DNA of 64,000 nt from Oceanimonas aquatica (GTDB lineage: Bacteria > Pseudomonadota > Gammaproteobacteria > Enterobacterales > Aeromonadaceae). This document shows, in pieces, positions 14,128 through 28,057 of the stretch. A model generated the notes under the pieces. That model was not told the origin of the DNA, searched no databases, and saw only the letters and a list, made by a program, of their open reading frames with translations. Each line of letters begins with the position of its first letter. Positions within the stretch are counted from its first letter, which is position 1. The stretch is from positions 310,001 through 374,000 of the forward strand of contig NZ_JAVBHX010000001.1 in the NCBI RefSeq assembly GCF_030732065.1, in the 5' to 3' direction. Position numbers and translations under genes: made by a program.

Positions 14128-14152
14128 GTATATATAATTATGAATTCATAAT
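14128..14152. promoter_or_regulatory. Operator-like motif, copy 1 (TRAP operon promoter)
   Basis: Contains GTATATATAATTATGAAT, shared with the site at 19005 at all but one base, and a perfect 16-bp palindrome ATTATGAATTCATAAT (14137-14152). A TATAAT hexamer lies within it, so binding would block the promoter. Probable target of the GntR/FCD protein encoded at 17985. Confidence 0.6.
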
Positions 14153-14184: not shown

Positions 14185-15195
14185 ATGGGAAACAATCTAC
14201 ACGCTTTTGGCGGTTTCTTTAAAAAGAGTTTGTTAACGATTTCGCTGGGGGCCACCCTGGCCACCGCCCAGGTGAATGCCGAGACCCTGCGGGTGGCCGG
14301 CAACTTTGCCGTGGACCACTCCAGCACCCTCGCCATGGAAGTGTTTAAAAAGGAAGTCGAGACGGCCACCGACGGTGATATTGACGTTAACCTGTTCCCG
14401 GCCATGCAGCTGGGCGGCGCCTCCGAGAACGTGGATCAGGTGCGTTCCGGTGTGCTCAACATGACCTGGATTGGTGCCTCTTTTCTGTCGCGCACCGTGC
14501 CCGAGCTGGAAGCGGTGAGCCTGCCGTTTCTGTTCAAGGACCGGGAAACCGCCTTTAAGGTGATCGACGGCCGGGTAGGGGATCTGCTTAACGAAAAACT
14601 GGCCGACAAGGGCTTTGTGGCCCTGGGCTTTATGGAGCTGGGTCCGCGCCACATCACCAACAGCGTGCGTCCTATCGAGTCCATTGATGACTTTGACGGC
14701 CTCAAGATCCGGCTGCAGCCCAACGAAACCCATCTCAAAACCTTCCGCGCTCTGGGTGCCAGCCCGACCTCCATGGGCATCAACGAGGTGTATTCCGCCC
14801 TGCAGCAGAACGTCATCGACGGTCAGGAAAACCCCTTCAGCATCATTCGCAAAAACAACTATCAGGAAGTGCAGCAGTACCTGACTGATACCGGCCATTT
14901 CTTTGACTTTATCGTGGTGGTGGCCAACAAGCGTCGTTTTGACAAGCTCTCCGACGAGGAGCAGCAGGCGGTGCGCCAGGCCATGGCCAAGGCGGTGGAG
15001 TGGCAGCGTGAAAAGGCCGCCGAGGAAGATCTGGAGTCCCGGGACCAGCTGGTGGCCGCCGGCATGAAATTCAACAGCGTCAGCCCCGAACTGCACCAGC
15101 AGATGCAGGACAAAACCGCGGGCATTATCGACGAGCTGAAAGATCGCCTCGGTGATGAGCTGGTGAACGCCGTACTGGAGGACGCCAAGTCATGA
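14185..15195 (+). CDS. TRAP transporter substrate-binding protein (DctP family), system 1
   Basis: Periplasmic binding protein of 336 residues. Signal peptide through about residue 32 (...ATAQVNA), then the DctP fold with FPAMQLGGASENVDQVRSG, the conserved Arg-containing LKIRLQPNETHLKTF and GQENPFSIIRKNNYQEVQQYL. The AAGGAGAAGG upstream sets the start. The stop overlaps dctQ by four bases. Such proteins bind organic acids; the ligand here is unknown, but the downstream enzymes suggest a carboxylate made from or related to a cyclic amide or malonate. Confidence 0.92.
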   Translation: MGNNLHAFGGFFKKSLLTISLGATLATAQVNAETLRVAGNFAVDHSSTLAMEVFKKEVETATDGDIDVNLFPAMQLGGASENVDQVRSGVLNMTWIGASFLSRTVPELEAVSLPFLFKDRETAFKVIDGRVGDLLNEKLADKGFVALGFMELGPRHITNSVRPIESIDDFDGLKIRLQPNETHLKTFRALGASPTSMGINEVYSALQQNVIDGQENPFSIIRKNNYQEVQQYLTDTGHFFDFIVVVANKRRFDKLSDEEQQAVRQAMAKAVEWQREKAAEEDLESRDQLVAAGMKFNSVSPELHQQMQDKTAGIIDELKDRLGDELVNAVLEDAKS

Positions 15196-15749
15196 CAACC
15201 GGTCATTCCGAGCAGCCGCAAATGCTGAACGGAGCCGGGCCTCTGCCTGCACCGGCGGCGCTGGTCCGCCGGTACCTGCTGAGGCTGGATGCAGCCTCCC
15301 GCTATACCATCTGCGTCTGTATGGCAGTGATGGTATTGCTGGTCTCGGCTCAGGTGTTCTGTCGTTATCTGCTGGCCGAATCCATCGACTGGGCCGACGA
15401 AATGTCACGTCTGGCTTTTGTCTGGGCTGTGTTTCTGGCCATTCCCCATGGCCTCAAGCATGGCGTTCATGTGGGCATCGATGTGCTGACCAACAAGCTG
15501 TCACCGCGTGTGCAGGAAGGGCTGAGCCGGCTGATGATGCTGGTCAGCGGCCTGCTGATGGTGGTGGTGTGTTACCAGGCGGTACTGGTGGCCATCGACG
15601 GTTGGGGTGAGCTGATGCCCACCATTCCGGTCAGTGCCTCGGTGTTTTACATCCCGGTGATGCTGAGCTGTGGCCATGGCCTGCTGCATCTGTTGTTCAT
15701 GGCCTGGCAAGGCGCCCATATCTGGGCTGACAAGGAGGAAGCCGCATGA
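15192..15749 (+). CDS. TRAP transporter small permease (DctQ), system 1
   Basis: 185 residues with four predicted membrane helices starting at about 45, 85, 120 and 155; the motif WADEMSRLAFVWAVFLA is typical of DctQ. The N-terminal 35 residues are cytoplasmic. It overlaps dctP by four bases and dctM by four, so the three subunits are translationally coupled. Forms the membrane complex with DctM. Confidence 0.9.
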   Translation: MTTGHSEQPQMLNGAGPLPAPAALVRRYLLRLDAASRYTICVCMAVMVLLVSAQVFCRYLLAESIDWADEMSRLAFVWAVFLAIPHGLKHGVHVGIDVLTNKLSPRVQEGLSRLMMLVSGLLMVVVCYQAVLVAIDGWGELMPTIPVSASVFYIPVMLSCGHGLLHLLFMAWQGAHIWADKEEAA

Positions 15750-17026
15750 CCACACTGGCGATTATCCTGTTCCTGGTGCTGGCCCTGCTGGGTATGCCCC
15801 TGGCCTTTTCTCTGGGCCTGGCGGCCCTGGGTGGACTGGCCTGGAGCGGCATTGAACTGTCGGTGCTGCCCCAGCGCATGATGCATGCGGTCAACTCCTT
15901 TCCGCTGATGGCGATTCCGCTGTTCATGCTGGCGGGTGAGCTGATGGTGGGCGGTCAGGTGATGCAACGCACCATCGACTTTGCCAATGCCTTCGTCGGC
16001 CGGGTCAAGGGCGGTCTGGCGCACGTCACCCTGCTGTCCGGTCTGGGCCTGGCTTCGGTCACCGGTGCTGCCGTGGCGGGCGCCAGTGCCCTGGGTACCA
16101 CCATGATGCCGGCGATGAAAAAGCACTACGACGCGGGCTTTGGCTCGGCGGTGGTGGCCTCGGCGTCCAACCTGGGACCCATCATTCCGCCCAGCGCGGC
16201 AATGATTGTCTACGCCCTGATGGCCGGTTCTTCGGTTTCCGTGGGTGGCCTGTTCATGGCGGGTGTGGTGCCGGGTGTGCTGCTGGTGGTGGGCATGATG
16301 GTGCTGTCGACCTGGATTGCGCACCGCAAGGGCTACCCGCCCACGGGTGAACCTTTCAGCCTGAAGAACCTGCTGGTGCAGACCAAACGGGCCGGGGCCA
16401 TCATGCTGATGCCGGTGATCGTGATTGGCGGCATTGTCGGCGGCGTCTTTACTGCGACCGAAGGGGCGGCCATCGCCGTGGTGTATGCCTTTATCATCGG
16501 TAAATGGGTGACCCGCAAGCTGGCCTGGGTTGATCTGCCCGGCTGCATGTTCCGCGCCGCCGTGACCTCGGCAGTGGTGGGTGCGCTGATCGCTTTTGCA
16601 ACACCGCTGACTTTCCTGTTCACCATCGATCTCATTCCGATGCGGCTGTCGGAGCTCATTCAGAGCATTACCGACAACCCCCAGGTGTTCCTGGCGTTGG
16701 TGATGGCGATGTTGCTGGTGGTGGGCATGTTCCTGGAATCGAACGCCGCCTACATCATGCTGGTGCCGCTGTTTGCGCCCATTGCGCTGGCCTACGGTAT
16801 CGACCCGCTGTATTTCGGCTTTCTGTTCGTGTTCAACCTGGTGATCGGCATGATGACGCCGCCGGTCGGGGTGTTGCTGTTCGTGATGTGCGGCATCGCC
16901 AAAATACCCATGTCTCAACTATTGCGCTACGTATGGCCCTTTATTGCCCTGCAATACCTGGTGCTGGCGCTGTGCTGGATTTTCCCCGAGGTAGTGACGG
17001 CCCTGCCGCACGCCCTGGGTTACTGA
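15746..17026 (+). CDS. TRAP transporter large permease (DctM), system 1
   Basis: 426 residues, about 12 hydrophobic segments, ion-coupled transport subunit. Diagnostic motifs are FPLMAIPLFMLAGELM, SNLGPIIPPSAAMIVYA and MMTPPVGVLLFV. The start overlaps dctQ. The decarboxylase-like gene follows 38 bases later, so the four genes probably form one operon. Confidence 0.94.
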   Translation: MTTLAIILFLVLALLGMPLAFSLGLAALGGLAWSGIELSVLPQRMMHAVNSFPLMAIPLFMLAGELMVGGQVMQRTIDFANAFVGRVKGGLAHVTLLSGLGLASVTGAAVAGASALGTTMMPAMKKHYDAGFGSAVVASASNLGPIIPPSAAMIVYALMAGSSVSVGGLFMAGVVPGVLLVVGMMVLSTWIAHRKGYPPTGEPFSLKNLLVQTKRAGAIMLMPVIVIGGIVGGVFTATEGAAIAVVYAFIIGKWVTRKLAWVDLPGCMFRAAVTSAVVGALIAFATPLTFLFTIDLIPMRLSELIQSITDNPQVFLALVMAMLLVVGMFLESNAAYIMLVPLFAPIALAYGIDPLYFGFLFVFNLVIGMMTPPVGVLLFVMCGIAKIPMSQLLRYVWPFIALQYLVLALCWIFPEVVTALPHALGY

Positions 17027-17064: not shown

Positions 17065-17796
17065 ATGACTGAACGTACTCTGCTGGGCGTACTGACCCCT
17101 TCTTCCAACACTACCCTGGAGCCGGTGACCGGCGACATTCTGCACGGTGTGGATGGCGTCAGCGCCCACTTTGGCCGCCTCAAGGTGACCGAGATTTCCC
17201 TGACCGATCATGCCCTGAGCCAGTTCGACAACGAGCCCTTTCTGCAGGCGTCCCGGCTGCTGGCCGATGCCAAGGTGCAGTCCATTACCTGGAGCGGCAC
17301 CTCGTCCGGCTGGCGCGGTTTTCAGGATGACGAGATCCTGTGCCAGGCCATTACCGACGCCACCGGCATTCCCGCCACCACCTCGGTGCTGGCGCTGAAC
17401 GAGCTGTTCCAGCTTACCGGCGTCAAGCGCTTTGGCCTGGTGACCCCTTACCTGCACGATGTGCAGAAAAAGGTGGTGGCCACCTACGCCGATGCCGGCT
17501 TTGAATGCGTGGCCGAGCGCCACCTCAATGACAAGGGCAACTTCTCCTTCTCCGAGGTGAGCGAAGAGACCATTGAGCAAATGGTGCGTGAGGTAGCGGC
17601 CGAGGGCCAGTGTGACGCCATCACCATCTTCTGCACCAACCTCCGCGGCGCCCGGGTGGCCGCTCGGCTGGAAAAAGAGCTGGGTATTCCCATCTACGAC
17701 ACCGTCTCTACCGGTGTGTGGAAGGGCATGCTGCTGGCCGACTCGGATCCGAGCCAGATCCAGGGGTGGGGCTCTTTGTTTTCGGTTAAGCCGTAA
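17065..17796 (+). CDS. Asp/Glu racemase-superfamily enzyme, arylmalonate decarboxylase-like
   Basis: 243 residues from ATG 17065, chosen because AAGGAG stands six bases upstream; an earlier in-frame ATG (17044) lacks a site. N-terminal TPSSNTTLEP is shared with maleate isomerases. The first catalytic Cys of racemases and maleate isomerases is replaced by Gly in SGTS (Gly78-Thr79-Ser80). A Tyr129 (VTPYLHDV) and a single Cys190 (FCTN) remain. This pattern matches the Gly74-Thr75-Ser76/Tyr126/Cys188 set of Bordetella arylmalonate decarboxylase, though Gly189 of that enzyme is Thr here. A cofactor-free decarboxylase, or an isomerase with one Cys, is therefore possible. Last gene of the TRAP-1 operon. 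Confidence 0.8.
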   Translation: MTERTLLGVLTPSSNTTLEPVTGDILHGVDGVSAHFGRLKVTEISLTDHALSQFDNEPFLQASRLLADAKVQSITWSGTSSGWRGFQDDEILCQAITDATGIPATTSVLALNELFQLTGVKRFGLVTPYLHDVQKKVVATYADAGFECVAERHLNDKGNFSFSEVSEETIEQMVREVAAEGQCDAITIFCTNLRGARVAARLEKELGIPIYDTVSTGVWKGMLLADSDPSQIQGWGSLFSVKP

Positions 17797-17984: not shown

Positions 17985-18680
17985 ATGGCAAGCAGTGTGA
18001 ATTCCCTGAGCCAGGGTTCCCTGCGGCGACGCTCGCTGCATGAGGAAGTGGCCGACTGCGTGCGCACCATGATCATCGAGGGTGAGCTGAAAGAAGGGGA
18101 GCGCATCAATGAACCGGCCCTGTGTAAACAGCTGGATATCTCCCGCACGCCGCTGCGTGAAGCCCTCAAGGTGCTGCACTCGGAAGGCATTGTCACCATC
18201 GAGCCCAACCGGGGCGCACGGGTGGCGGTGATCACGCCGGACGAAATTCGCGAGCACTTTGAAATCATTTGTTCCCTGGAGCGCCGTGCCGCCGAGCTCA
18301 CCGCCGAACGGGCCACGGCCGCCGACCTGGAGCAGCTGACCCGGCTGCAGTATCAGTTGGAAGGCTATCATCGGGCTCAGGACAAGCAGCAGTATTTCGA
18401 AATCAACCAGCATATTCACCGGCTGATTATCGAGCTTGCCGGCAACGACACTCTGATCCAGCTGCATCATCAGCTGATGAACAAGGTCAGCCGGGGTCGT
18501 TATCTGGCCATTGGCTTTCATCATCGCTGGGACGAGTCCGTGACCGAGCATCAGCAACTGCTGGACGCTCTTAAAGCCGGTGACGGCGACAGGGCAGGGC
18601 GCATTCTGGCCGAGCACGTCATGCATACCGGCAAGCTGCTGGTCAGTGAACTGGAGAAAAAACAGCAAAAAGCGGGCTAA
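17985..18680 (+). CDS. GntR-family regulator, FCD (FadR/VanR) subfamily
   Basis: 231 residues. N-terminal winged helix-turn-helix (about 17-85; LDISRTPLREALKVLHSEGIV is the recognition region) and an all-helical FCD ligand domain (about 90-220) with the metal-binding His residues in EINQHIHRLI and later EHVMHTGKL. The start is supported by CAGGAG seven bases upstream. FCD proteins usually bind small carboxylates and repress neighbouring catabolic genes. It lies between the two divisions of the island, both of which carry the same motif in their leaders, so it is the obvious local repressor. Confidence 0.92.
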   Translation: MASSVNSLSQGSLRRRSLHEEVADCVRTMIIEGELKEGERINEPALCKQLDISRTPLREALKVLHSEGIVTIEPNRGARVAVITPDEIREHFEIICSLERRAAELTAERATAADLEQLTRLQYQLEGYHRAQDKQQYFEINQHIHRLIIELAGNDTLIQLHHQLMNKVSRGRYLAIGFHHRWDESVTEHQQLLDALKAGDGDRAGRILAEHVMHTGKLLVSELEKKQQKAG

Positions 18681-19004: not shown

Positions 19005-19025
19005 GTATACATAATTATGAATGCA
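19005..19025. promoter_or_regulatory. Operator-like motif, copy 2 (hydantoinase operon promoter)
   Basis: GTATACATAATTATGAAT followed by GCA; differs from the copy at 14128 in one base over the first 18. It forms an imperfect dyad centred on CATAATTATG and contains a CATAAT -10-like hexamer, 36 bases before the hydantoinase start. Confidence 0.6.
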
Positions 19026-19060: not shown

Positions 19061-20482
19061 ATGTCCGAGTTTGATCTGGTGATTCGAAACGGCCGCATTG
19101 CCACCGCCGCCGACGTAACCGACTGTGATATCGGTATCAAGGACGGCCGTATTGTGGCTCTGGGCCTGAACCTGGGCGAGGGTAGGGAAGAGATTGACGC
19201 CAGTGGCCAGCTGGTGCTGCCGGGCGGCGTGGATGCCCACTGTCATCTGGATCAGCCGATGCCTGACGGGCTGCGCATGGCCGACGACTTTTACACCGGC
19301 ACCCGCTCCGCAGCCTGTGGCGGCACTACCACCGTCATGCCCTTTGCCGCCCAGGAAAAAGGCCAGTCGCTGAAGGCGGCGGTAGAAGACTACCACCAGC
19401 GTGCCGAGGGCAAGGCGGTGGTGGATTACGCCTTTCACCTGATCGTCAGTGACCCCACCGAAACCGTGCTCAAGGAAGAGCTGCCGGAGCTGATCCGCCA
19501 GGGTTGTACTTCGTTCAAGATTTACATGACCTACGACGACCTCAAGCTCAACGACGGTCAGATCCTCGACGTGCTGGCGCTGGCCCGGGACGAAGGCGCC
19601 ATGGCCATGATCCACGCCGAAAACGCCGACTGCATCGGCTGGCTGACCAAGCGGCTGATCGACGCCGGTCACACCGCGCCAAAATACCATGCCGCCGCCC
19701 GCCCCATGCTGGTGGAGCGGGAAGCCACTCACAGGGTCATCGCCCTGTCCGAGCTGGTGGACGTGCCCATTCTGATTGTGCATGTGTCCGGTGAAGAGGC
19801 GGTGGAGCAAATTCGCTGGGCCCGCAGCAAGGGCATCAGCATCTACGCCGAAACCTGCCCCCAGTACCTGTTCCTGACCGCCGAAGATCTGGGTATTGAC
19901 GGCTACGAAGGCGCCAAGTGCGTGTGCAGTCCGCCACCCCGGGATGAAGCCAACCAGCAGGTGATCTGGGACGGCCTGGAAGACGGTCTGTTTACCATCT
20001 TCTCGTCTGACCATGCCCCGTTCCGTTACGAAGACCCCCAGGGCAAGAAGCCGAACGGCGAAGAGGTGGACTTTCCCTATATTCCCAACGGCATTCCCGG
20101 CCTGGAAACACGGCTGCCGCTGTTGTTCTCGGAAGGGGTCAACAAGGGCCGCATTACCCTCAACCGCTTCGTGGAGCTGACCGCCACCAACCCGGCCAAG
20201 CTCTACGGCCTGTATCCGCAAAAGGGCAGCATTGCCGTGGGCGCCGATGCCGATATCGCCATCTGGGATCCGAAGCGTGAAGTGGTCATTCAGAACGAAC
20301 TGCTGCATCACGATGTGGATTACACCCCCTACGAGGGTCAGGTGGTCACCGGCTGGCCGGTGCTGACCCTGAGCCGGGGCAAGGTGGTGTGGCGGGACGG
20401 CGAGGTGCTGGGCCAGGCCGGTGATGGCCGCTTTTTGCCCTGCGGCAAGCCGGACATGGCCAAACCCAAGGTGCGGCGCTGA
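19061..20482 (+). CDS. D-hydantoinase / dihydropyrimidinase-family amidohydrolase
   Basis: 473 residues, cytosolic binuclear-zinc enzyme that opens cyclic ureides or imides. All metal ligands are visible: His60 and His62 (DAHCHLD), carbamylated Lys153 (SFKIYM), His185 (MIHAEN), His241 (IVHVSG) and Asp317 (FSSDHAPF). The substrate could be a dihydropyrimidine, a hydantoin or a cyclic imide; sequence alone does not decide. First gene of the second operon, with AAGGAG upstream of the start; the aminotransferase follows after 81 bases that include a GGCCG/CGGCC hairpin. Confidence 0.93.
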   Translation: MSEFDLVIRNGRIATAADVTDCDIGIKDGRIVALGLNLGEGREEIDASGQLVLPGGVDAHCHLDQPMPDGLRMADDFYTGTRSAACGGTTTVMPFAAQEKGQSLKAAVEDYHQRAEGKAVVDYAFHLIVSDPTETVLKEELPELIRQGCTSFKIYMTYDDLKLNDGQILDVLALARDEGAMAMIHAENADCIGWLTKRLIDAGHTAPKYHAAARPMLVEREATHRVIALSELVDVPILIVHVSGEEAVEQIRWARSKGISIYAETCPQYLFLTAEDLGIDGYEGAKCVCSPPPRDEANQQVIWDGLEDGLFTIFSSDHAPFRYEDPQGKKPNGEEVDFPYIPNGIPGLETRLPLLFSEGVNKGRITLNRFVELTATNPAKLYGLYPQKGSIAVGADADIAIWDPKREVVIQNELLHHDVDYTPYEGQVVTGWPVLTLSRGKVVWRDGEVLGQAGDGRFLPCGKPDMAKPKVRR

Positions 20483-20563: not shown

Positions 20564-21730
20564 ATGTCATACAAAAGCGGGCGTCATTTTCTGCAGATCC
20601 CGGGCCCCTCACCGGTACCGGAGCGTCTGGTTCGCGCCATGTCACAAGCGGTGATCGATCACCGCGGGCCGGAGTTCGGTGAGCTGGGTCGCGATGTGCT
20701 GGCCGGCATCAAGCGCATTTTCCAGACCGACAGCCCGGTGGTGATTTATCCCGCCTCCGGCACCGGCGCCTGGGAAGCGGCGCTGGTCAACACCCTGAGC
20801 CCCGGCGACCGGGTACTGATGTGTGAAACCGGTCAGTTTGCCACCCTCTGGCATGAGCTGGCCACTCGTTTGGGCGTGGAAGTGGAATTTCTGCCCGGCG
20901 ACTGGCGCCACGGCGCCAGCCCGGAAGCCATTGCCGAGCGCCTGAGCCAGGACACCGAGCATCACATTCAGGCAGTGTGCGTGGTGCACAACGAAACCTC
21001 TACTGGCGTCACCAGCCGTATTGCCGATATTCGCCGTGCCATCAACGGCACCGGCCATCCGGCGCTGTTTATGGTGGACACCATTTCGGGTCTGGCCTCA
21101 GCCGAATACAAGCACGATGAATGGGGCGTGGATGTCACCGTGTCCGGCTCGCAAAAAGGCCTGATGCTGCCCCCCGGCATCAGCTTCAATGCCCTGAGCG
21201 ACAAGGCCCTGGCCCGCAGCAAGCAGGCCAGACTGCCGAAATCCTACTGGGACTGGGCGTCCATGCTGGCGGGCAACGCCACCGGTTATTTTCCCTACAC
21301 GCCCGCCACCAACCTGCTCTATGGCCTGAAGGAAGCCATCGTCATGCTGGAAGAGGAGGGGCTGGATAACGTCTTTGCCCGTCACCAGCGCCATGCCGAG
21401 GCCACCCGCCGGGCGGTACAGGCCTGGGGCCTGGAAGTGCTGTGCCTTAACCCCGAGGAATACAGCCCGGTACTGACCACGGTACTGCTGCCGGAAGGTC
21501 ACGACGCCGACGCCCTGCGCAAGGTCATTCTGGATCGCTTCGACATGTCGCTGGGCGCGGGTCTTGGCAAGCTCAAGGGCCGGGTGTTCCGCATCGGTCA
21601 CCTGGGCGACATCAATGACCTCACCCTGCTCGGCACCCTGGCCGGCGTCGAGATGGGGCTGGTGGCGGCGGGCGTGCCCCACAGTCAGGGCGGTGTACAG
21701 GCCGCCATGCGTTTTCTGGCCGACCACTAA
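20564..21730 (+). CDS. Class V aminotransferase, alanine/serine-glyoxylate type (PucG-like)
   Basis: 388 residues; PLP enzyme with Lys198 in VSGSQKGLMLPPG, Asp172 in FMVDTISGLASAEY and the N-terminal IPGPSPVPERL typical of SgaA/AGXT/PucG. The start is ATG 20564, which has AAGGAG five bases upstream; a GTG two codons earlier overlaps that site. PucG acts on ureidoglycine with glyoxylate, while other members use serine or alanine; the amino donor here is unknown. Together with the hydantoinase it suggests nitrogen recovery from a ureide or amino-acid-like intermediate. Confidence 0.9.
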   Translation: MSYKSGRHFLQIPGPSPVPERLVRAMSQAVIDHRGPEFGELGRDVLAGIKRIFQTDSPVVIYPASGTGAWEAALVNTLSPGDRVLMCETGQFATLWHELATRLGVEVEFLPGDWRHGASPEAIAERLSQDTEHHIQAVCVVHNETSTGVTSRIADIRRAINGTGHPALFMVDTISGLASAEYKHDEWGVDVTVSGSQKGLMLPPGISFNALSDKALARSKQARLPKSYWDWASMLAGNATGYFPYTPATNLLYGLKEAIVMLEEEGLDNVFARHQRHAEATRRAVQAWGLEVLCLNPEEYSPVLTTVLLPEGHDADALRKVILDRFDMSLGAGLGKLKGRVFRIGHLGDINDLTLLGTLAGVEMGLVAAGVPHSQGGVQAAMRFLADH

Positions 21731-21800: not shown

Positions 21801-22838
21801 ATGATGAGAAAACTGATCGTATCCACCCTGCTGGGCAGTGTTCTGGCGTCCACTCCGGCCCTGGCCGAAACCATCAACCTCAAGGTCATTGGTCAGCCGC
21901 TGGCGACCGGTCTGATCCAGAAAAACAAGGAACAGCCGTTTTTTGAAAACCTGGCCGAAAAGACCGGCCTGCCGCTCAAGGTCAACTATAAGCCCCTCGA
22001 TACCACCGGCATCAAGGACGTGGAACAACTGCGGGTACTGAAATCCGGCCTGTTTGACCTGATCTCCCTGCGCATGTCCCAGATTTCCCGGGATGAGCCC
22101 ACCATTCTGGGTCTGGATCTGGTGGGTCTGAACCCGGACTTCGAGCAGGGCCGCAAGGTGGTGGCCGCCTACAAGGACACCGTGGATCAGCGTCTGCAGG
22201 AGCGCTTCAACACCAAGCTGCTGGGCGTATGGCCCTTTGGCCCTCAGGTGCTGTTCTGTAACCACCCCATCAACGGCCTGGAAGACGTCAAGGGCCTGAA
22301 GGTACGGGTGTATGACCAGAACCTGGCCCAGTTTGTGGAATCCGTGGGCGGTGTGCCGGTGCCGGTGGCCTTTGGTGATGTGCACCAGAGTCTGGCGCTG
22401 GGCATGATTGAGTGTGCCATTACCGGCCCCAGTTCCGCCAACTCCGCGGGCTGGCCGGAAGTGACCACCCACATGCTGCCCCTGGGTTTCCAGCTGGCGC
22501 TGAACGGCTACGGCATCAACCTCAAGGCCTGGAACAAGCTGGATGAAGCGCAGCAGCAGACCCTGCAGGCCGCCTTTGACGAGCTGAATGAGGAAATCTG
22601 GAGCTACTCGGAAGAGCTGTTCCTGGATGCCAGCCGCTGTAACGTGGGTGAGCAGCCCTGTGAAACCGGCAAGTCCTTCAACCTGGTGGAAGTGCCGGTG
22701 AACGAAGCCGACCTGGCCACCGTGGCCAGCACAGTGACTCAGGTGTCCTACCCGACCTGGGCCGAGCAGTGCGACAAGTCAAACCCTGACTGCTCTGCCA
22801 ACTGGAAACGGGACCTGAAGGATATCGTGGGCCTGTAA
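21801..22838 (+). CDS. TRAP transporter substrate-binding protein (DctP family), system 2
   Basis: 345 residues, from tandem ATGs at 21801/21804 with GGAAGGA upstream; the frame is open earlier but that part is antisense-like sequence inside the aminotransferase gene. Signal peptide MMRKLIVSTLLGSVLASTPALA. Binding-fold landmarks are the conserved Arg region DVKGLKVRVYDQNLAQFVES and ALGMIECAITGPSSANSAGW. It differs strongly from the system-1 protein and carries two extra Cys pairs near the C-terminus (SRCNVGEQPCE, EQCDKSNPDCS), possibly disulfides. Ligand unknown. Confidence 0.9.
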   Translation: MMRKLIVSTLLGSVLASTPALAETINLKVIGQPLATGLIQKNKEQPFFENLAEKTGLPLKVNYKPLDTTGIKDVEQLRVLKSGLFDLISLRMSQISRDEPTILGLDLVGLNPDFEQGRKVVAAYKDTVDQRLQERFNTKLLGVWPFGPQVLFCNHPINGLEDVKGLKVRVYDQNLAQFVESVGGVPVPVAFGDVHQSLALGMIECAITGPSSANSAGWPEVTTHMLPLGFQLALNGYGINLKAWNKLDEAQQQTLQAAFDELNEEIWSYSEELFLDASRCNVGEQPCETGKSFNLVEVPVNEADLATVASTVTQVSYPTWAEQCDKSNPDCSANWKRDLKDIVGL

Positions 22839-22996: not shown

Positions 22997-23608
22997 ATGA
23001 AGCGAATAGAGCAACTGACCAGCCTGGTATTTGGCGGCATGTTTCTGCTGTTGTCGCTGATGATTGCGGTAGAAACCCTGCTGCGCAAGTTTTTCAAGAT
23101 ATCGTTGCAGGGGGTCGATGAGCTGAGCGGTTACGCCCTGGCCGTGGGCGCCACTCTGGCGTTTACCATCGCCCTGTTTGGCCGTGCGCACATGCGCATC
23201 GACATTTTTCATGAGCGGCTGCCAAAGGGTCTGCAGAGCGTGCTGAACTGGCTTTCCGCCATGTTTATGAGCGGTCTGGGTCTGTTCCTGGCCTGGGTCT
23301 GTCTGAATGTGGTGCGCGAAACCATGGATTACGGCAGCACCTCCCAGACGCCCTGGGCGACGCCGCTGATTTATCCCCAGAGTGTCTGGATGGCGGGCCT
23401 GGCGGTATTTGCCCTGGTAGCACTGGGCTATGGCCTGCGTGCCACCTGGCTGCTGGCAACCGGCCGGCACCAGACACTGAACAATGAGTTTAACCCCAAA
23501 GGGGTAAGTGAAGAGCTGAAGGAAGAGCTGGCCGACTTTGCCCAGCGCCAGCAGCAACAGGATCAAAACACCGTGGCGCCAAAACTGGCCGGGGAGGGTG
23601 CACAATGA
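22997..23608 (+). CDS. TRAP transporter small permease (DctQ), system 2
   Basis: 203 residues from ATG 22997 (MKRIEQLTSLVFGG), which has AAGGAG eight bases upstream; a longer in-frame start lacks such a site. Four membrane helices (about 7-29, 45-65, 85-108, 130-152), the LQGVDELSGYALAVGATLAF motif of DctQ and a hydrophilic C-terminal tail of about 50 residues, longer than usual and rich in Glu/Gln. It overlaps dctM by four bases. Confidence 0.9.
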   Translation: MKRIEQLTSLVFGGMFLLLSLMIAVETLLRKFFKISLQGVDELSGYALAVGATLAFTIALFGRAHMRIDIFHERLPKGLQSVLNWLSAMFMSGLGLFLAWVCLNVVRETMDYGSTSQTPWATPLIYPQSVWMAGLAVFALVALGYGLRATWLLATGRHQTLNNEFNPKGVSEELKEELADFAQRQQQQDQNTVAPKLAGEGAQ

Positions 23609-24894
23609 CTGTAACCACCGTTTTTATCGGCTTTTTCGCCATGCTCGGCATGCTGCTGCTGGGGGTGCCCATCGCCGTGGCCATGGCCCTGATTGGGGTG
23701 ATTGGCGGCATCATGGTGTTCGACTGGACCTTTATGGATTCTATCGGTTCCGTGGTCTGGAGTGTGCACAACGAAGCGTTGCTGACCGCCATTCCGCTGT
23801 TCATTCTGCTGGGTGAGCTGCTGCTGCGCAGCGGCATCGCCGACAAGATGTTCCTGTCCATGTCGGCCTGGCTGGGCCGGTTGCCCGGTGGCCTGCTGCA
23901 CACCAACATCGGCTCCTGTGCCCTGTTTGCCGCCACCTCCGGCTCCTCGGTGGCCACCGCCGCCACCATAGGTACAGTAGCGCTGCCGTCGCTGCAGGAA
24001 CGCAAGTACTCCATGCGTCAGTCCCTGGGCAGCCTGGCGGCCGGTGGCACCTTAGGGATCCTTATTCCGCCCAGCGTCAATATGCTGATCTACGGCTCGC
24101 TCACCAACAACTCCATCGGCAAGCTGTTTATGGCGGGGCTTATTCCCGGCGTCATGCTGAGCCTGCTGTTCATGGTGTATATCGGCTTTGCCAACCGCGG
24201 CAAGGGCAGCATTCGTGAAGAAAAACTGCCGCTGTCCGAGAAGCTGCGTCTGTCCCGCCACCTGATCCCGCCTGCGGTGGTATTCGGTATCGTCATGGGC
24301 AGCATCTACAGCGGCCTGGCCACCGCCACCGAGTCGGCTGCCCTGGGCGTGATGACCGCCCTCTGGTTTGCCTGGCGCTCCGGCCGGCTGTCACTGAATT
24401 TCCTGCAGGAATGTTTTGTGCAGACCGCGCGCATTACCGGCATGATCCTGCTCATCATCACCGCCGCCTTTGTGCTTAACCTCACCATCAGCCTCACCGG
24501 CGTGGTGGACGAACTGACCGCCTGGGTAACCTCCTTTGGCCTCAGTGCCACCGGTCTGTTGCTCATCCTCATCCTGTTCTACCTGGCACTCGGTATGTTC
24601 ATGGACGTGTTGTCGATGCAGGTGCTGACCATTCCCATCACCTATCCCATCGTGACCGCTTTGGGTGTGGACCCCATCTGGTACGGCGTGTTCGTAGTGC
24701 TGATGTGTGAGCTGGCGCTGATCACTCCGCCGGTGGGCATGAACCTGTTCGTGGTACAGAGTGTACGCAAGGACGGTGGCAACATCAGTGATGTGATGTG
24801 GGGCGTGGTGCCGTTCATCCTGATCATGATGCTGTTTACCTTCAGTCTGATGACCTTCCCGGAGATCGCCCTGTGGCTGCCCAACATGATGTAA
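23605..24894 (+). CDS. TRAP transporter large permease (DctM), system 2
   Basis: 429 residues with about 12 membrane segments. Motifs: AIPLFILLGELLLRSG, the GTLGILIPPSVNMLIYG loop and ALITPPVGMNLFV. Translationally coupled to DctQ by an ATGA overlap, and its 3' end overlaps the proposed start of the amidase gene by 22 bases, so transport and hydrolysis are cotranscribed. Confidence 0.94.
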   Translation: MTVTTVFIGFFAMLGMLLLGVPIAVAMALIGVIGGIMVFDWTFMDSIGSVVWSVHNEALLTAIPLFILLGELLLRSGIADKMFLSMSAWLGRLPGGLLHTNIGSCALFAATSGSSVATAATIGTVALPSLQERKYSMRQSLGSLAAGGTLGILIPPSVNMLIYGSLTNNSIGKLFMAGLIPGVMLSLLFMVYIGFANRGKGSIREEKLPLSEKLRLSRHLIPPAVVFGIVMGSIYSGLATATESAALGVMTALWFAWRSGRLSLNFLQECFVQTARITGMILLIITAAFVLNLTISLTGVVDELTAWVTSFGLSATGLLLILILFYLALGMFMDVLSMQVLTIPITYPIVTALGVDPIWYGVFVVLMCELALITPPVGMNLFVVQSVRKDGGNISDVMWGVVPFILIMMLFTFSLMTFPEIALWLPNMM

Positions 24895-26285
24895 CCCAAA
24901 GCTGGCGCCTCGGCGCCCTGGAGCTGGCGGCGGCGTATGCCGCCAGCACCCTGACCCCGCTGGCGGTGGTCGACGCGCTGGGCGAGCGTATCGCCCGGCT
25001 CAACCCCGAACTCAACGCCCTGATAACGATAAACCCGGCGGCCAGTGAGGAGGCCGCCGCCGCCACTAGGCGGTGGGCCGAAGGCCGGCCGTTGAGCGCC
25101 CTTGATGGTGTGCCGCTGACGGTCAAGGATCACCTCAACGTGCGTGGCCTGGCCACCACCTGGGGCAACCTGGCCCTGGCCGGCAACATTGCTCACGAGG
25201 AAGAGCTGGCGGTGGCCCGCTGCCGGGCCGCGGGCCTGGTGATACTCGGCAAGACCAATGTGCCCGAGTTCACCCTGGAGGGGTATACCGACAACCCCTT
25301 GTTCGGTGTGACCCGCAACCCCTGGAACCCGGGTCTGACCCCGGGCGGCTCCAGCGGCGGCGCGGTGGCGAGTGTGGCTGCGGGGCTGGCGCCGCTGGCG
25401 CTGGGCACCGACGGCGGTGGCTCCATTCGCCGGCCGGCGTCCCATACCGGCCTGGTGGGGCTCAAGCCTTCCATCGGCGCCGTGGCCCGGGCCGGCAGCC
25501 TGCCCCAGGTGATGCTCGACTTTGAAGTGGTGGGGCCACTGGCCCGCAGCGCCGCTGATGCCGAGGCCCTGTACCGCATTATCGCCGGACCGGACCGGCG
25601 GGATCCCGCTTCCTGGCGCACTCACTCCGAGGCACCGGCCGGCAAGTTGCGTATTCACTATGTGCCCCGTTTCGGCGAGCAGCCCCTGAATGCCGAGATC
25701 GCCGAGAACGTGGAGCGAGCGCTGGCGGTGTTTGAGCGCCAGGGCCACCGGGTAACCCAAGGGGAGCTGCCGTTCTCCTTTGAGCCGGTGGACCGCTTCT
25801 GGCCCATGCTGGGAGTCACCGCAGTGGCGGCCATTTTCCACGCCTTTCCCGAGACCGAGCCCGAGGCCGCCGAGCGCTTTCGCGACATGGCCGAGCAGGG
25901 CCGGCAGCTGTCGGCCACCGATTACCTGTGCGGCCTGGACGGCATTCGCGGGTTTCGCCGTACCGTGGCCGAGGCCTTTGAAGAGGTCGACATCATTATG
26001 ACGCCGTCGGCGGCGGCCCTGCCCTGGCCGGCGGAGCAGCCTTACCCGGTTGAGATCAACGGTCAGCCGGTGGGCCCGCGTGGCCATGCCATCTATACCG
26101 GCTGGGTGAACGCCAGTGGTCACCCGGCCATCAACCTGCCGGCGGCGCCGTCGGCGGACGGCCTGCCCATCGGCTTTCAGCTGGTGGCGGCCATGGGTCA
26201 GGATGAGCTGCTGCTGCGGCTGGCGGCGGAATATGAACAGCAACAACCGGGCTGGCAGTGGCCGGCGCTGGCAGAAACGAAATAA
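24873..26285 (+). CDS. Amidase-signature family amidohydrolase
   Basis: 470 residues if translation starts at GTG 24873, supported by GGAG eight bases upstream; a longer reading runs antisense-like inside dctM. The Ser-cisSer-Lys triad is present: Lys85 (TVKDHLN), cis-Ser160 (GGSSGG) and nucleophile Ser184 (GTDGGGSIRRPAS). It hydrolyses an amide to acid and ammonia; half-amides such as maleamate- or succinamate-like products of the hydantoinase are plausible substrates, but this is inference. Followed after 13 bases by the hydratase. Confidence 0.9.
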   Translation: MAAQHDVTQSWRLGALELAAAYAASTLTPLAVVDALGERIARLNPELNALITINPAASEEAAAATRRWAEGRPLSALDGVPLTVKDHLNVRGLATTWGNLALAGNIAHEEELAVARCRAAGLVILGKTNVPEFTLEGYTDNPLFGVTRNPWNPGLTPGGSSGGAVASVAAGLAPLALGTDGGGSIRRPASHTGLVGLKPSIGAVARAGSLPQVMLDFEVVGPLARSAADAEALYRIIAGPDRRDPASWRTHSEAPAGKLRIHYVPRFGEQPLNAEIAENVERALAVFERQGHRVTQGELPFSFEPVDRFWPMLGVTAVAAIFHAFPETEPEAAERFRDMAEQGRQLSATDYLCGLDGIRGFRRTVAEAFEEVDIIMTPSAAALPWPAEQPYPVEINGQPVGPRGHAIYTGWVNASGHPAINLPAAPSADGLPIGFQLVAAMGQDELLLRLAAEYEQQQPGWQWPALAETK

Positions 26286-26298
26286 CAGGATGAGCACC

Positions 26299-27081
26299 AT
26301 GGAACAACAAGCACAACAACAAACTCAACAACAACAGGTACAGGAAGCGGTGGCCCGGGTACTGGCCGCCTACGAGAGCGGAAAGCAGTTCGAGGCCGGC
26401 GACGGCCCGCAAACCGTGGAGCAGGCCTACGCCATTCAGGATGGCGTGGCCCGCCACCTGTGGCCGGCAAGCCGCACCCACTGCTGGAAGGTGGGTGCCC
26501 CCAACCGGGACACCGAGCCCTACAGCGCGCCCATTCCGCCCCAAAAGGTGTATGACAGCGGCGTGACCCTGAAGGGCTGCGCCTTTCATATGATCGGCAT
26601 TGAGGCGGAGCTGGCGTTTCGGGTAACGCAGCCGCTTCCGGTAAGGGCCGAGGCCTACAGTGAGCAGGAAGTACGCGCGGCCCTGGGAGAAATGTGCGTG
26701 ACCCTGGAGCTGGTGGATACCCGGCTGCAGCAATGGCAGCATACCAGTGCCCTGTGGCGGCTGGCCGATAACCAGATCAGCGGCGGCCTGGTGGTGGGTA
26801 GCGGCATCAGCGACTGGCAGGGCCGGGATCTGGCGCTGCAGCCGGTGCAGCTGACCGTCAACGGCGAGGTGCTGGCGGACAAGCGCGGCGGCCATCCGCT
26901 GAGCGATCCTACCCTGCTGCTGACCTGGGCATTGAATCATCTGGTGGCGCGCAATCAAGGGCTTCAGCCCGGCGATCTGATCACCACCGGCAGCTGGACC
27001 GGCATGAAGTTCATTGAGCGCGGTGCCGAGATCAACGCGGTGTTCCCCGGTATCGGCGAGGTTGCGCTGACTATCGCATAA
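26299..27081 (+). CDS. FAH-superfamily 2-keto-4-pentenoate hydratase-like protein
   Basis: 260 residues from ATG 26299 (AGGA eight bases upstream; an ATG three codons earlier is too close to it). Fumarylacetoacetase-type fold: IGIEAELAFRV carries the metal-binding Glu pair, followed by LELVDTRL, LADNQISGGLVVG and the C-terminal GDLITTGSWTG. Members hydrate 2-oxo-alkenoates or decarboxylate oxaloacetate-like acids. The first 16 residues are very Gln-rich, encoded by CAA-rich DNA, and precede the usual start of the family, so they are an odd extension. Confidence 0.85.
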   Translation: MEQQAQQQTQQQQVQEAVARVLAAYESGKQFEAGDGPQTVEQAYAIQDGVARHLWPASRTHCWKVGAPNRDTEPYSAPIPPQKVYDSGVTLKGCAFHMIGIEAELAFRVTQPLPVRAEAYSEQEVRAALGEMCVTLELVDTRLQQWQHTSALWRLADNQISGGLVVGSGISDWQGRDLALQPVQLTVNGEVLADKRGGHPLSDPTLLLTWALNHLVARNQGLQPGDLITTGSWTGMKFIERGAEINAVFPGIGEVALTIA

Positions 27082-27133: not shown

Positions 27134-28057
27134 TTGCTTCCCGGCGGCCTGTGTGCCGCCATTATTCTGGCATTGCTGCTGCCGGGCCCCGGTGTCTGGC
27201 TGGCCCAGTGGCAGCCGCTGCCCTGGCTGGTGGCGGTGATCTTTCTGGTCAACGGCCTGCAGACCCAGGTGCGTGAGCTCAGGCCCGAAGCGGGTTTTGG
27301 CCGGGTATTCGGGCTGGCCTTAGTGATAAGCCTGTTGCTGTCGCCGCTGCTGGGGGCACTGCTGTATTATTACAGCGGCCTGGCGCCCGGGCTGGCGCTG
27401 GGGCTGCTGGTGGTGTCGGTGGTGCCGCCGACGCTGTCATCCTGCGTGGTGCTGACCCGGCTCAGCGGCGGCAACGCCCAGTGGTCGTTGTTCATGACCC
27501 TGGGGCTGAACCTGCTGGGTATTGTCACCATACCGCTGATGCTCAGCCTGCTGATTGGCAGCAGTGGTGAGCTGTCGCCCTGGCCCTTGCTGCACAAGCT
27601 GTCGTTGATGGTGCTGCTGCCCTTTGTGCTGGGTATTTTGCTGCGGTTGGTGCTGGGGGCCAGAGTGGTGCACCGCTGGATGACCCTGGTGCCCACCCTG
27701 AGCGTGGTGACCACCGCCTGGATCACCCTGTCGACCAGCCGGGCCGCCTTGCTGGCCCTGGAAGGGGCGGACTTACTGGCGCTGGCGGCCTGGTCGCTGC
27801 TGCTGCACGGCCTGTTGTTGCTGCTGTGCCGGCTGGCGGGCAGCGGTCTGGCCCGTCCGGCGCGGCTGGCGCTGATGTTTACCGCTGCCCAGAAAACCAC
27901 GCCGGTGGCGGTCAGTGTGCTGGTGGCCATGAACGCCGCCGGCGGGCTGGCGGTGGTGGCCTGCCTGGTGTTTCACTTTCTGCACATGCTGGCCGACTCC
28001 CTGCTGGCGTCGCGCATTGCAGCACGCACGGCGGCCCTGGCCCGTGCCGAGGCTTAA
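27134..28057 (+). CDS. Bile acid:sodium symporter (BASS)-family transporter
   Basis: 307 residues counted from TTG 27134, with nine or so membrane helices and the BASS pattern (VVPPTLSSCVVLTRLSGGNAQWSL; MFTAAQKTTPVAVSVLVAMN). The only strong ribosome site, AAGGAGG (27113-27119), is 14 bases from this TTG but five bases from an in-frame ATC at 27125, so the true start may be a non-AUG ATC, adding three residues. It ends convergently with the sensor kinase, overlapping by four bases. Likely exports or imports an organic acid of the same pathway. Confidence 0.85.
   Translation: MLPGGLCAAIILALLLPGPGVWLAQWQPLPWLVAVIFLVNGLQTQVRELRPEAGFGRVFGLALVISLLLSPLLGALLYYYSGLAPGLALGLLVVSVVPPTLSSCVVLTRLSGGNAQWSLFMTLGLNLLGIVTIPLMLSLLIGSSGELSPWPLLHKLSLMVLLPFVLGILLRLVLGARVVHRWMTLVPTLSVVTTAWITLSTSRAALLALEGADLLALAAWSLLLHGLLLLLCRLAGSGLARPARLALMFTAAQKTTPVAVSVLVAMNAAGGLAVVACLVFHFLHMLADSLLASRIAARTAALARAEA

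Follow-up and report, generated by a model that had tools for sequence, protein, structure and literature searches.

An arylmalonate decarboxylase-like protein with a glycine/single-cysteine active site is encoded near a hydantoinase in Oceanimonas aquatica and in most loci of its clade

A protein of Oceanimonas aquatica, here called P0001, belongs to a clade of racemase-superfamily proteins in which a hydantoinase/dihydropyrimidinase is encoded within 10 kb of the clade gene in 32 of 40 loci. This hydantoinase setting is a stronger finding than the active site, and the pathway setting of the clade is well supported. As judged from its sequence, P0001 appears to be an enzyme like arylmalonate decarboxylase (AMDase) within the superfamily, although strict AMDase membership fails; the observation from which the analysis started, the change of the first catalytic Cys to Gly, is right and conserved. 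The proposal made with that observation, that an AMDase-type site occurs here in a catabolic gene cluster, was supported.

The DNA analyzed, referred to as the window, is a stretch of 64,000 nt from O. aquatica (GCF_030732065.1, NZ_JAVBHX010000001.1, positions 310,001 to 374,000, forward strand). The P0001 gene lies directly 3′ of the first set of TRAP genes (14185 to 17026) and is the last gene of that operon (Table 1). Its start was placed at ATG 17065 rather than at ATG 17044, which would give a protein of 250 aa, because AGGAG lies ∼7 nt before 17065. The solved relatives nearest to the window hydantoinase are D-hydantoinases. For the aminotransferase, the nearest solved protein is serine-glyoxylate aminotransferase (6pk1), and the best NCBIfam model, BhcA, scored below its cutoff. 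An SBF-like (bile-acid/CPA) transporter is encoded just 3′ of the gene set (27134 to 28057), and in Marinobacterium and a related MAG (L007 to L010) a gene for kin of this transporter separates the clade gene from that of the hydantoinase. No eut genes were recognized among the window proteins scanned.

Table 1. Features of the window around the P0001 gene
Feature	Position	Strand	Basis or remark
Candidate operator core ATAATTATGAAT	14134..14145	+	∼50 nt 5′ of TRAP-1 operon
TRAP-1 solute-binding protein DctP	14185..15195	+	Pfam DctP, 276 bits
ORF between DctP and DctM, presumably small permease DctQ (TRAP-1)	15192..15749	+	Position, overlap with neighbors
TRAP-1 large permease DctM	15746..17026	+	TIGR00786, 369 bits
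P0001, AMDase-like/maleate-isomerase-fold protein	17065..17796	+	243 aa (translation)
GntR/FCD-family regulator	17985..18680	+	Pfam FCD and GntR
Candidate operator core ATAATTATGAAT	19011..19022	+	∼50 nt 5′ of hydantoinase
Dihydropyrimidinase/hydantoinase, PRK13404 group	19061..20482	+	NF009941, 828 bits (cutoff, 647)
Class V aminotransferase	20564..21730	+	ORF opens at GTG 20558
TRAP-2 solute-binding protein	21801..22838	+	Pfam DctP, 82 bits; ORF opens at 21564, ATG 21801 inferred
TRAP-2 small permease DctQ	22997..23608	+	ORF opens at GTG 22955, ATG 22997 inferred
TRAP-2 large permease DctM	23605..24894	+	Second TRAP system
Amidase-signature hydrolase	24798..26285	+	Pfam Amidase, 331 bits; ORF bounds, start provisional
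2-Keto-4-pentenoate hydratase/FAA-hydrolase family protein	26290..27081	+	Start inferred; below NCBIfam cutoffs

The 40 clade loci comprise the window, 10 near relatives, and 29 others, counted without L011 (a near copy of L003) and without L071 and L072, which lie outside the clade. Of the 29 others, 21 had a hydantoinase within 10 kb, versus 0 of 22 control loci from other branches by the same test (Fisher, 4e-8), a P value that is descriptive because the rows are related. The controls were five AMDase loci, one maleate isomerase locus, EutA and EutA-like loci, the third Gly group described below, and more; none of the five true AMDase loci examined (L140 to L144) had a hydantoinase near it. 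Identity to the window hydantoinase was at least 55% for 31 of the 32 locus hydantoinases, the remaining one, in L127, being 33% identical. Across whole genomes, PRK13404 matches above the cutoff occurred in 7/7 clade-positive genomes (O. aquatica itself excluded) versus 7/240 others, counts that describe co-occurrence rather than adjacency and for which the genomes common to both samples were inferred from handles; in G520 and G592 the match above the cutoff does not adjoin the clade gene.

Other genes found within 10 kb in the 40 clade loci encode GntR regulators (32 loci), amidases (23), HyuE-like proteins (18), aminotransferases (12), and proteins resembling the hydratase (11). Eight loci (L057, L059, L063, L069, L070, L074, L128, and L130) showed no hydantoinase in the stretch, and in three of these (L059, L074, and L128) a TRZ/ATZ-type amidohydrolase adjoins the clade gene. 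Amidohydrolases of this type lie close to the clade gene in L059, L074, L128 (two), L132, and L133; their best models were 5′-deoxyadenosine deaminase, N-ethylammeline chlorohydrolase, or TRZ/ATZ hydrolase, and the models ranked next included 8-oxoguanine deaminase, all below cutoff. These amidohydrolases and the genes of purine-catabolism type in L053, L059, and L129 named below are pointers to purine-type rings, none of them universal. The transporters of the clade loci are of the TRAP, D-galactonate-type MFS, and SsuA-like ABC types (the last two below cutoff), which suggests anionic import. Genes seen near the clade gene in individual loci include those for a pucC/pucD-like dehydrogenase (L059) and a PuuE-like protein (L053), both below cutoff, annotated uraD and hydroxyisourate hydrolase genes (L129), and a DUF3830 protein gene next to the cluster in Rhizobium and Paraburkholderia (L128:13073-13480 and L076:15031-15450).

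The two gene sets of the window share an upstream motif. The exact 12-mer ATAATTATGAAT occurs only twice in the 3,447,595-base genome (Table 1), each copy ∼50 nt before a gene set, namely, the TRAP operon that ends with the P0001 gene and the hydantoinase. Matches with one mismatch numbered 3 in the window versus 0.03 expected, two of the three overlapping as one palindrome. Sites matching at 10 to 12 of the 12 positions were found 5′ of both the opening gene of the TRAP set and the hydantoinase gene in six loci of Oceanimonas, Oceanisphaera, and Zobellella (L001 to L006), and in Oceanospirillaceae (L007 to L010) a similar site lies 5′ of the hydantoinase, at other distances and on the opposite strand, and 5′ of the TRAP gene in L009 and L010 only; the upstream stretches searched in the relatives are AT-rich, and the counts there are raw. 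A promoter scan returned no sigma-70 match. The two gene sets probably form one regulon, and the GntR protein encoded between them would be the obvious candidate to bind ATAATTATGAAT.

Translation and alignment placed Gly78 (GGC, 17296 to 17298; within WSGTSSGW) at the position of the first catalytic Cys, followed by Thr79 and Ser80, with Tyr129 (within TPY) and Cys190 (TGC, 17632 to 17634; within IFCTNLRG) kept, in agreement with the earlier note. The correspondence claimed there with Bordetella AMDase also held in the alignment: these residues match Gly74/Thr75/Ser76/Tyr126/Cys188, the AMDase residues given in PMC4996985, where Gly plus a single Cys is the AMDase pattern. Gly78 and Cys190 are kept in 38/38 clade rows and the Tyr in 37/38. 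When P0001 was aligned with 30 orthologues (38 to 93% identity to P0001), a set that includes Gamma-, Beta-, and Alphaproteobacteria, one actinobacterium, and one cyanobacterium, 29 columns were invariant, including P12, S13, S14, N15, H35, R38, W76, G78, T79, W83, Y129, N159, C190, T191, N192, and D212. A diverged second copy in G432 (L034), in which GTS reads GSS and the catalytic Tyr is replaced by His, is perhaps decaying or repurposed.

Profile searches gave P0001 80.7 bits against Pfam Amdase (PF17645; gathering score, 25.9) and 43.6 bits against Asp_Glu_race (31) and placed it far below the cutoffs of the NCBIfam AMDase model NF052327 (70.6 bits; cutoff, 225) and the EutA model TIGR02990 (67.7 bits; cutoff, 318). 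The nearest solved sequences were AMDase entries (E value, 3.8e-15), followed by maleate isomerases (E value, 3e-7). AMDase membership was judged by the 12 criteria of PMC4996985, Table 4. G74 and C188 have counterparts in G78 and C190, and the dioxyanion-hole residues T75, S76, and Y126 have theirs in T79, S80, and Y129. The dioxyanion-hole G189 is T191 in P0001, P14 P15 is P12 S13, and the hydrophobic pocket residues Y48, V156, and M159 are L51, N159, and F162, all three assigned by sequence alignment and the last two across a variable stretch. Asn159 thereby takes the place of Val156, which in AMDase helps form the pocket for expelling the departing carboxylate. The pocket residues L40 and V43 fall in a gappy stretch and correspond to V41 and I44 when the alignment is anchored on GTS or to K40 and E43 when it is anchored on the N-terminal PP; the similar residues V41 and I44 seem likelier, since GTS anchoring gives the AMDase rows L and I. 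The motifs LMGTSLSF and ILLSCGGL read TWSGTSSGW and ITIFCTNL. Strict membership among the AMDases, EutA proteins, or maleate isomerases was considered and rejected, with profile scores below the cutoffs and with differing cysteines and pocket residues.

At the positions of Asn15 and Asn159 of P0001, NicE, MaiA, and a genomic maleate-isomerase-like protein (L105) have Asn as well, and Y129 matches the Tyr position of NicE and MaiA. In maleate isomerases, this Asn pair and Tyr form the substrate site. Of the two active-site cysteines of maleate isomerases, the first is G78 in P0001, and of the cysteine dyad of Asp/Glu/hydantoin racemases, C190 alone is present. With Gly78 and Cys190 aligning with AMDase and Asn15 and Asn159 with NicE and MaiA, the predicted site joins an AMDase-like Gly/Cys arrangement to a maleate-isomerase-like polar pocket. 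PSSNTTLE (residues 12 to 19) and CTNLRG had both been taken as maleate-isomerase motifs; PSSN does occur in solved maleate isomerases, but NicE and MaiA read CVQMP around the second Cys, and CTNLR is found in EutA-like two-Cys proteins. The further idea of a mosaic of two families was abandoned, as P0001 sits in one coherent clade and both PSSN and CTNLR are more widely shared.

In a tree of 77 rows, the P0001 clade stood alone with 38 rows (support, 100/99), and three AMDases and three maleate isomerases formed groups of their own outside it. The three AMDases are all of its AMDase rows, L136, L138, and the fragment L139 having been left out; also left out were 14 near copies and the Ser rows L095 and L098, both of which were in the first tree. 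A placement of P0001 inside the maleate isomerases, named in the earlier note as an outcome that, with loss of activity on malonates, would count against it, did not occur in these trees, which were built without hydantoin racemases proper. The EutA and maleate isomerase rows examined keep both cysteines. Gly at position 78 occurs in three groups, the P0001 clade, the AMDases, and a small group (L050, L051, and L079), and needs three changes on the tree. AU tests rejected none of three joins, the clade with AMDase (P = 0.275), the clade with maleate isomerase (P = 0.282), or all Gly groups (P = 0.204); a single origin of the Gly78 state is neither shown nor rejected, and the deeper branching is weakly resolved. 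The third Gly group, apart from both AMDase and the P0001 clade, reads GGTS where the first Cys would stand and CTN at the site of the second. In the superfamily proteins L095 and L098, the first position is Ser (TSTS), and the second (DTALH) lacks a Cys.

An AlphaFold2 model of P0001 built from 50 aligned sequences had a mean pLDDT of 96.6. Aligned with VIA-align, it matched maleate isomerase 4fq5 best (Z, 32.1; rmsd, 1.7; 236 residues aligned), followed by the maleate isomerases 2xed (Z, 31.9) and 2xec (31.7), the AMDase mutant 3ixl (Z, 31.4; rmsd, 1.9; 231 residues aligned), maleate isomerase 4fq7 (31.2), and AMDase 3dg9 (30.8), so that the six top matches fell within 1.3 Z units. Further AMDase entries and two uncharacterized proteins came next (Z, 26.4 to 27.8), and allantoin, hydantoin, aspartate, and glutamate racemases reached at most 18.7, the value of allantoin racemase. 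Foldseek likewise ranked maleate isomerases at the top and AMDase a close second. Structure prediction against the two families had been suggested as a check; the model matched both and, being close to tied between isomerase and decarboxylase, chooses neither.

The HyuE-like companions form a second group of superfamily proteins in the clade loci. Eighteen from 17 loci were compared, 15 from gene clustering and 3 from annotated records (matches in L058 and L061 were left out). The first catalytic Cys is replaced by Ala, Val, or Ile in 16 of the 18, and the second is also replaced in 15 of those 16, the second site of the L005 protein lying beyond the contig end. Both cysteines are kept in two, the protein of L053 and one of the two in L060; the nearest solved kin of the cysteine-free L060 copy are hydantoin and allantoin racemases. 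Carriers of HyuE-like homologues include L056, L060, L063, L065, L067, L068, L075, L076, L127, L129, and L131, where the homologue is encoded beside the clade gene or close to it. No HyuE-like gene was found in the window cluster.

At somewhat less than even confidence, the reading favored here is that P0001 transfers protons without a cofactor in the catabolism of cyclic ureides or N-heterocycles, probably by decarboxylating a small polar ureido- or dicarboxylate. The gene set, probably GntR controlled, would import small anionic compounds by the two TRAP systems, and the hydantoinase, amidase, and aminotransferase would degrade cyclic ureides or related N-heterocycles. Ring opening by the hydantoinase and/or amidase would yield the substrate, probably a small polar ureido- or dicarboxylate, whose carboxylate would be held at Thr79/Ser80/Tyr129; CO2 would then leave, or a proton be removed, without a cofactor, and Cys190 would protonate one face of the enediolate. 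We infer the cyclic-ureide role, the proton transfer by Cys190, and the GntR control, whereas decarboxylation, the substrate, and the order of the steps are speculative. With a single cysteine, neither the usual two-base racemization nor the maleate-isomerase route through the first cysteine is to be expected. Decarboxylation is the first guess because we know of no other reaction for a Gly/single-Cys site in the racemase fold. The holding of the carboxylate by Thr/Ser/Tyr and the protonation of the enediolate by the lone Cys would follow by analogy from work on AMDase (PMC4996985 and PMC12576825).

As aligned, the polar Asn159 makes arylmalonates less likely as substrates and a small polar compound more likely. 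According to PMC4996985, annotated AMDases without the hydrophobic pocket are very unlikely to turn over arylmalonates, which a tested Acidianus protein is said to confirm. Guesses at the substrate are 5-carboxyhydantoin or ureidomalonate, dihydro-isoorotate, 5-substituted barbiturates, and uric-acid or allantoin derivatives. In the racemase-family enzyme OpaE, C90S keeps 4.8% and C199S at most 0.3% of the activity (PMC12661438), which was counted for the single-Cys reading, and the argument made for AMDase that hydrogen bonds to the carboxylate being cleaved raise the barrier (PMC12576825) was counted against a decarboxylase. The favored reading also has against it the changed AMDase pocket, the 8/40 loci without a hydantoinase, the lack of a cluster gene that fixes the substrate, and a fold and Asn pair that lean as strongly to maleate isomerase as to AMDase.

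The main rival to decarboxylation is isomerization or tautomerization, with Cys190 either attacking as a nucleophile or donating a proton to an unsaturated ureido/amide dicarboxylate, for example, one resembling maleamate or ureidoacrylate. Although maleate isomerases were the top fold matches, nearly tied with AMDase, and the Asn15/Asn159 pair shared with NicE and MaiA is invariant in 31 sequences, with a 2-keto-4-pentenoate hydratase homologue within the cluster, the first cysteine, the presumed succinyl carrier in MaiA, is Gly in 38/38 rows, and this alternative is considered unlikely, if still a serious contender. The 2xed entry is the MaiA C194S structure, with the succinyl group presumably on the first cysteine.

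A one-sided racemase or epimerase of hydantoins or N-carbamoyl amino acids, in which another residue or water replaces the lost cysteine, would suit the hydantoinase partner and has a parallel in the unbalanced Thr/Cys pair of EcL-DER (PMC12661438). It is improbable, however, as all 38 clade rows have Gly at position 78, which offers no side chain as a base, and 16/18 HyuE-like companions lack the first cysteine and 15/18 lack both, so that racemization seems not to be selected. That P0001 is a noncatalytic relative or one of other function (scaffold or sensor) riding with the operon might be suggested by the second, mostly cysteine-free relative alongside in many loci; with 29 invariant columns, many of them in active-site motifs, across 31 taxonomically wide sequences, this is less probable again. 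Least probable of all is a true, divergent arylmalonate decarboxylase of the Bordetella type, which the Pfam Amdase score and the kept equivalents of G74, T75, S76, Y126, and C188 favor but which is opposed by the NCBIfam score, the departures at P15, Y48, V156, M159, G189, and both motifs, the separate clade (a grouping with AMDase nevertheless having an AU P value of 0.275), and the absence of a nearby hydantoinase at all five true AMDase loci.

The proton-transfer reading can be taken further, though doubtfully: the clade might be the missing physiological setting of AMDase chemistry, a cofactor-free decarboxylase of ureido- or substituted malonates acting after a dedicated hydantoinase and amidase open a carboxylated cyclic-ureide or barbiturate-like ring, accompanied in many bacteria by a cysteine-free racemase-fold partner. 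If so, two repurposed members of the superfamily would serve a single, so far undescribed N-heterocycle pathway. The natural substrate of AMDase is stated to be unknown (PMC4996985); in the P0001 clade, a conserved gene set brings an AMDase-type Gly/Cys site together with an obvious biochemical partner, so that the substrate can be sought directly. As sampled, the Gly/single-Cys site occurs in three separate superfamily groups, of which the P0001 clade has a polar rather than a hydrophobic pocket residue, a variant relevant to predicting or engineering such decarboxylases from sequence. The usual proximity of a gene for the opening of urea-type rings, in a marine bacterium and some of its distant relatives, hints at a catabolic step. 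In the literature covered, which leaves most subscription journals outside, no papers were found on arylmalonate decarboxylase with hydantoinase or, by title or abstract start, on this TRAP/dihydropyrimidinase/racemase-type cluster.

Among known systems, AMDase (EC 4.1.1.76; 3dg9, 3ixl, and 2vlb) resembles P0001 in fold (Z, 26.8 to 31.4), in Gly-Thr-Ser, Tyr, and the single Cys, and in the transporter genes nearby, as reported for amd genes (PMC4996985). P0001 differs in Asn159 for Val156, Phe162 for Met159, Leu51 for Tyr48, Thr191 for Gly189, and Ser13 for Pro15 and forms its own clade, and its neighbors are a hydantoinase and an amidase, whereas 61% of amd loci have a mandelate-racemase/MLE gene (PMC4996985). 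With the maleate cis-trans isomerases (NicE, 4fq5/4fq7; MaiA, 2xec/2xed) it shares the top fold scores (Z, 31.2 to 32.1), PSSN, and Asn at 159, but its first Cys is Gly, and CTNLR stands in place of CVQMP around the second. EutA, of ectoine/hydroxyectoine utilization, has the Pfam superfamily and a CT-x-LR-like stretch at the second Cys in common with P0001; unlike P0001, EutA rows above the TIGR02990 cutoff keep both cysteines (SCTS and CTA), in line with a proposed role of EutA as a racemase (PMC5924519). The hydantoin/allantoin racemase pathway (HyuE/HpxA kin) is a parallel in that the P0001 gene lies beside a hydantoinase and a HyuE-like protein is present in 18/40 clade loci, but the first Cys of the dyad is missing from P0001, and both are missing from 15/18 HyuE-like companions.
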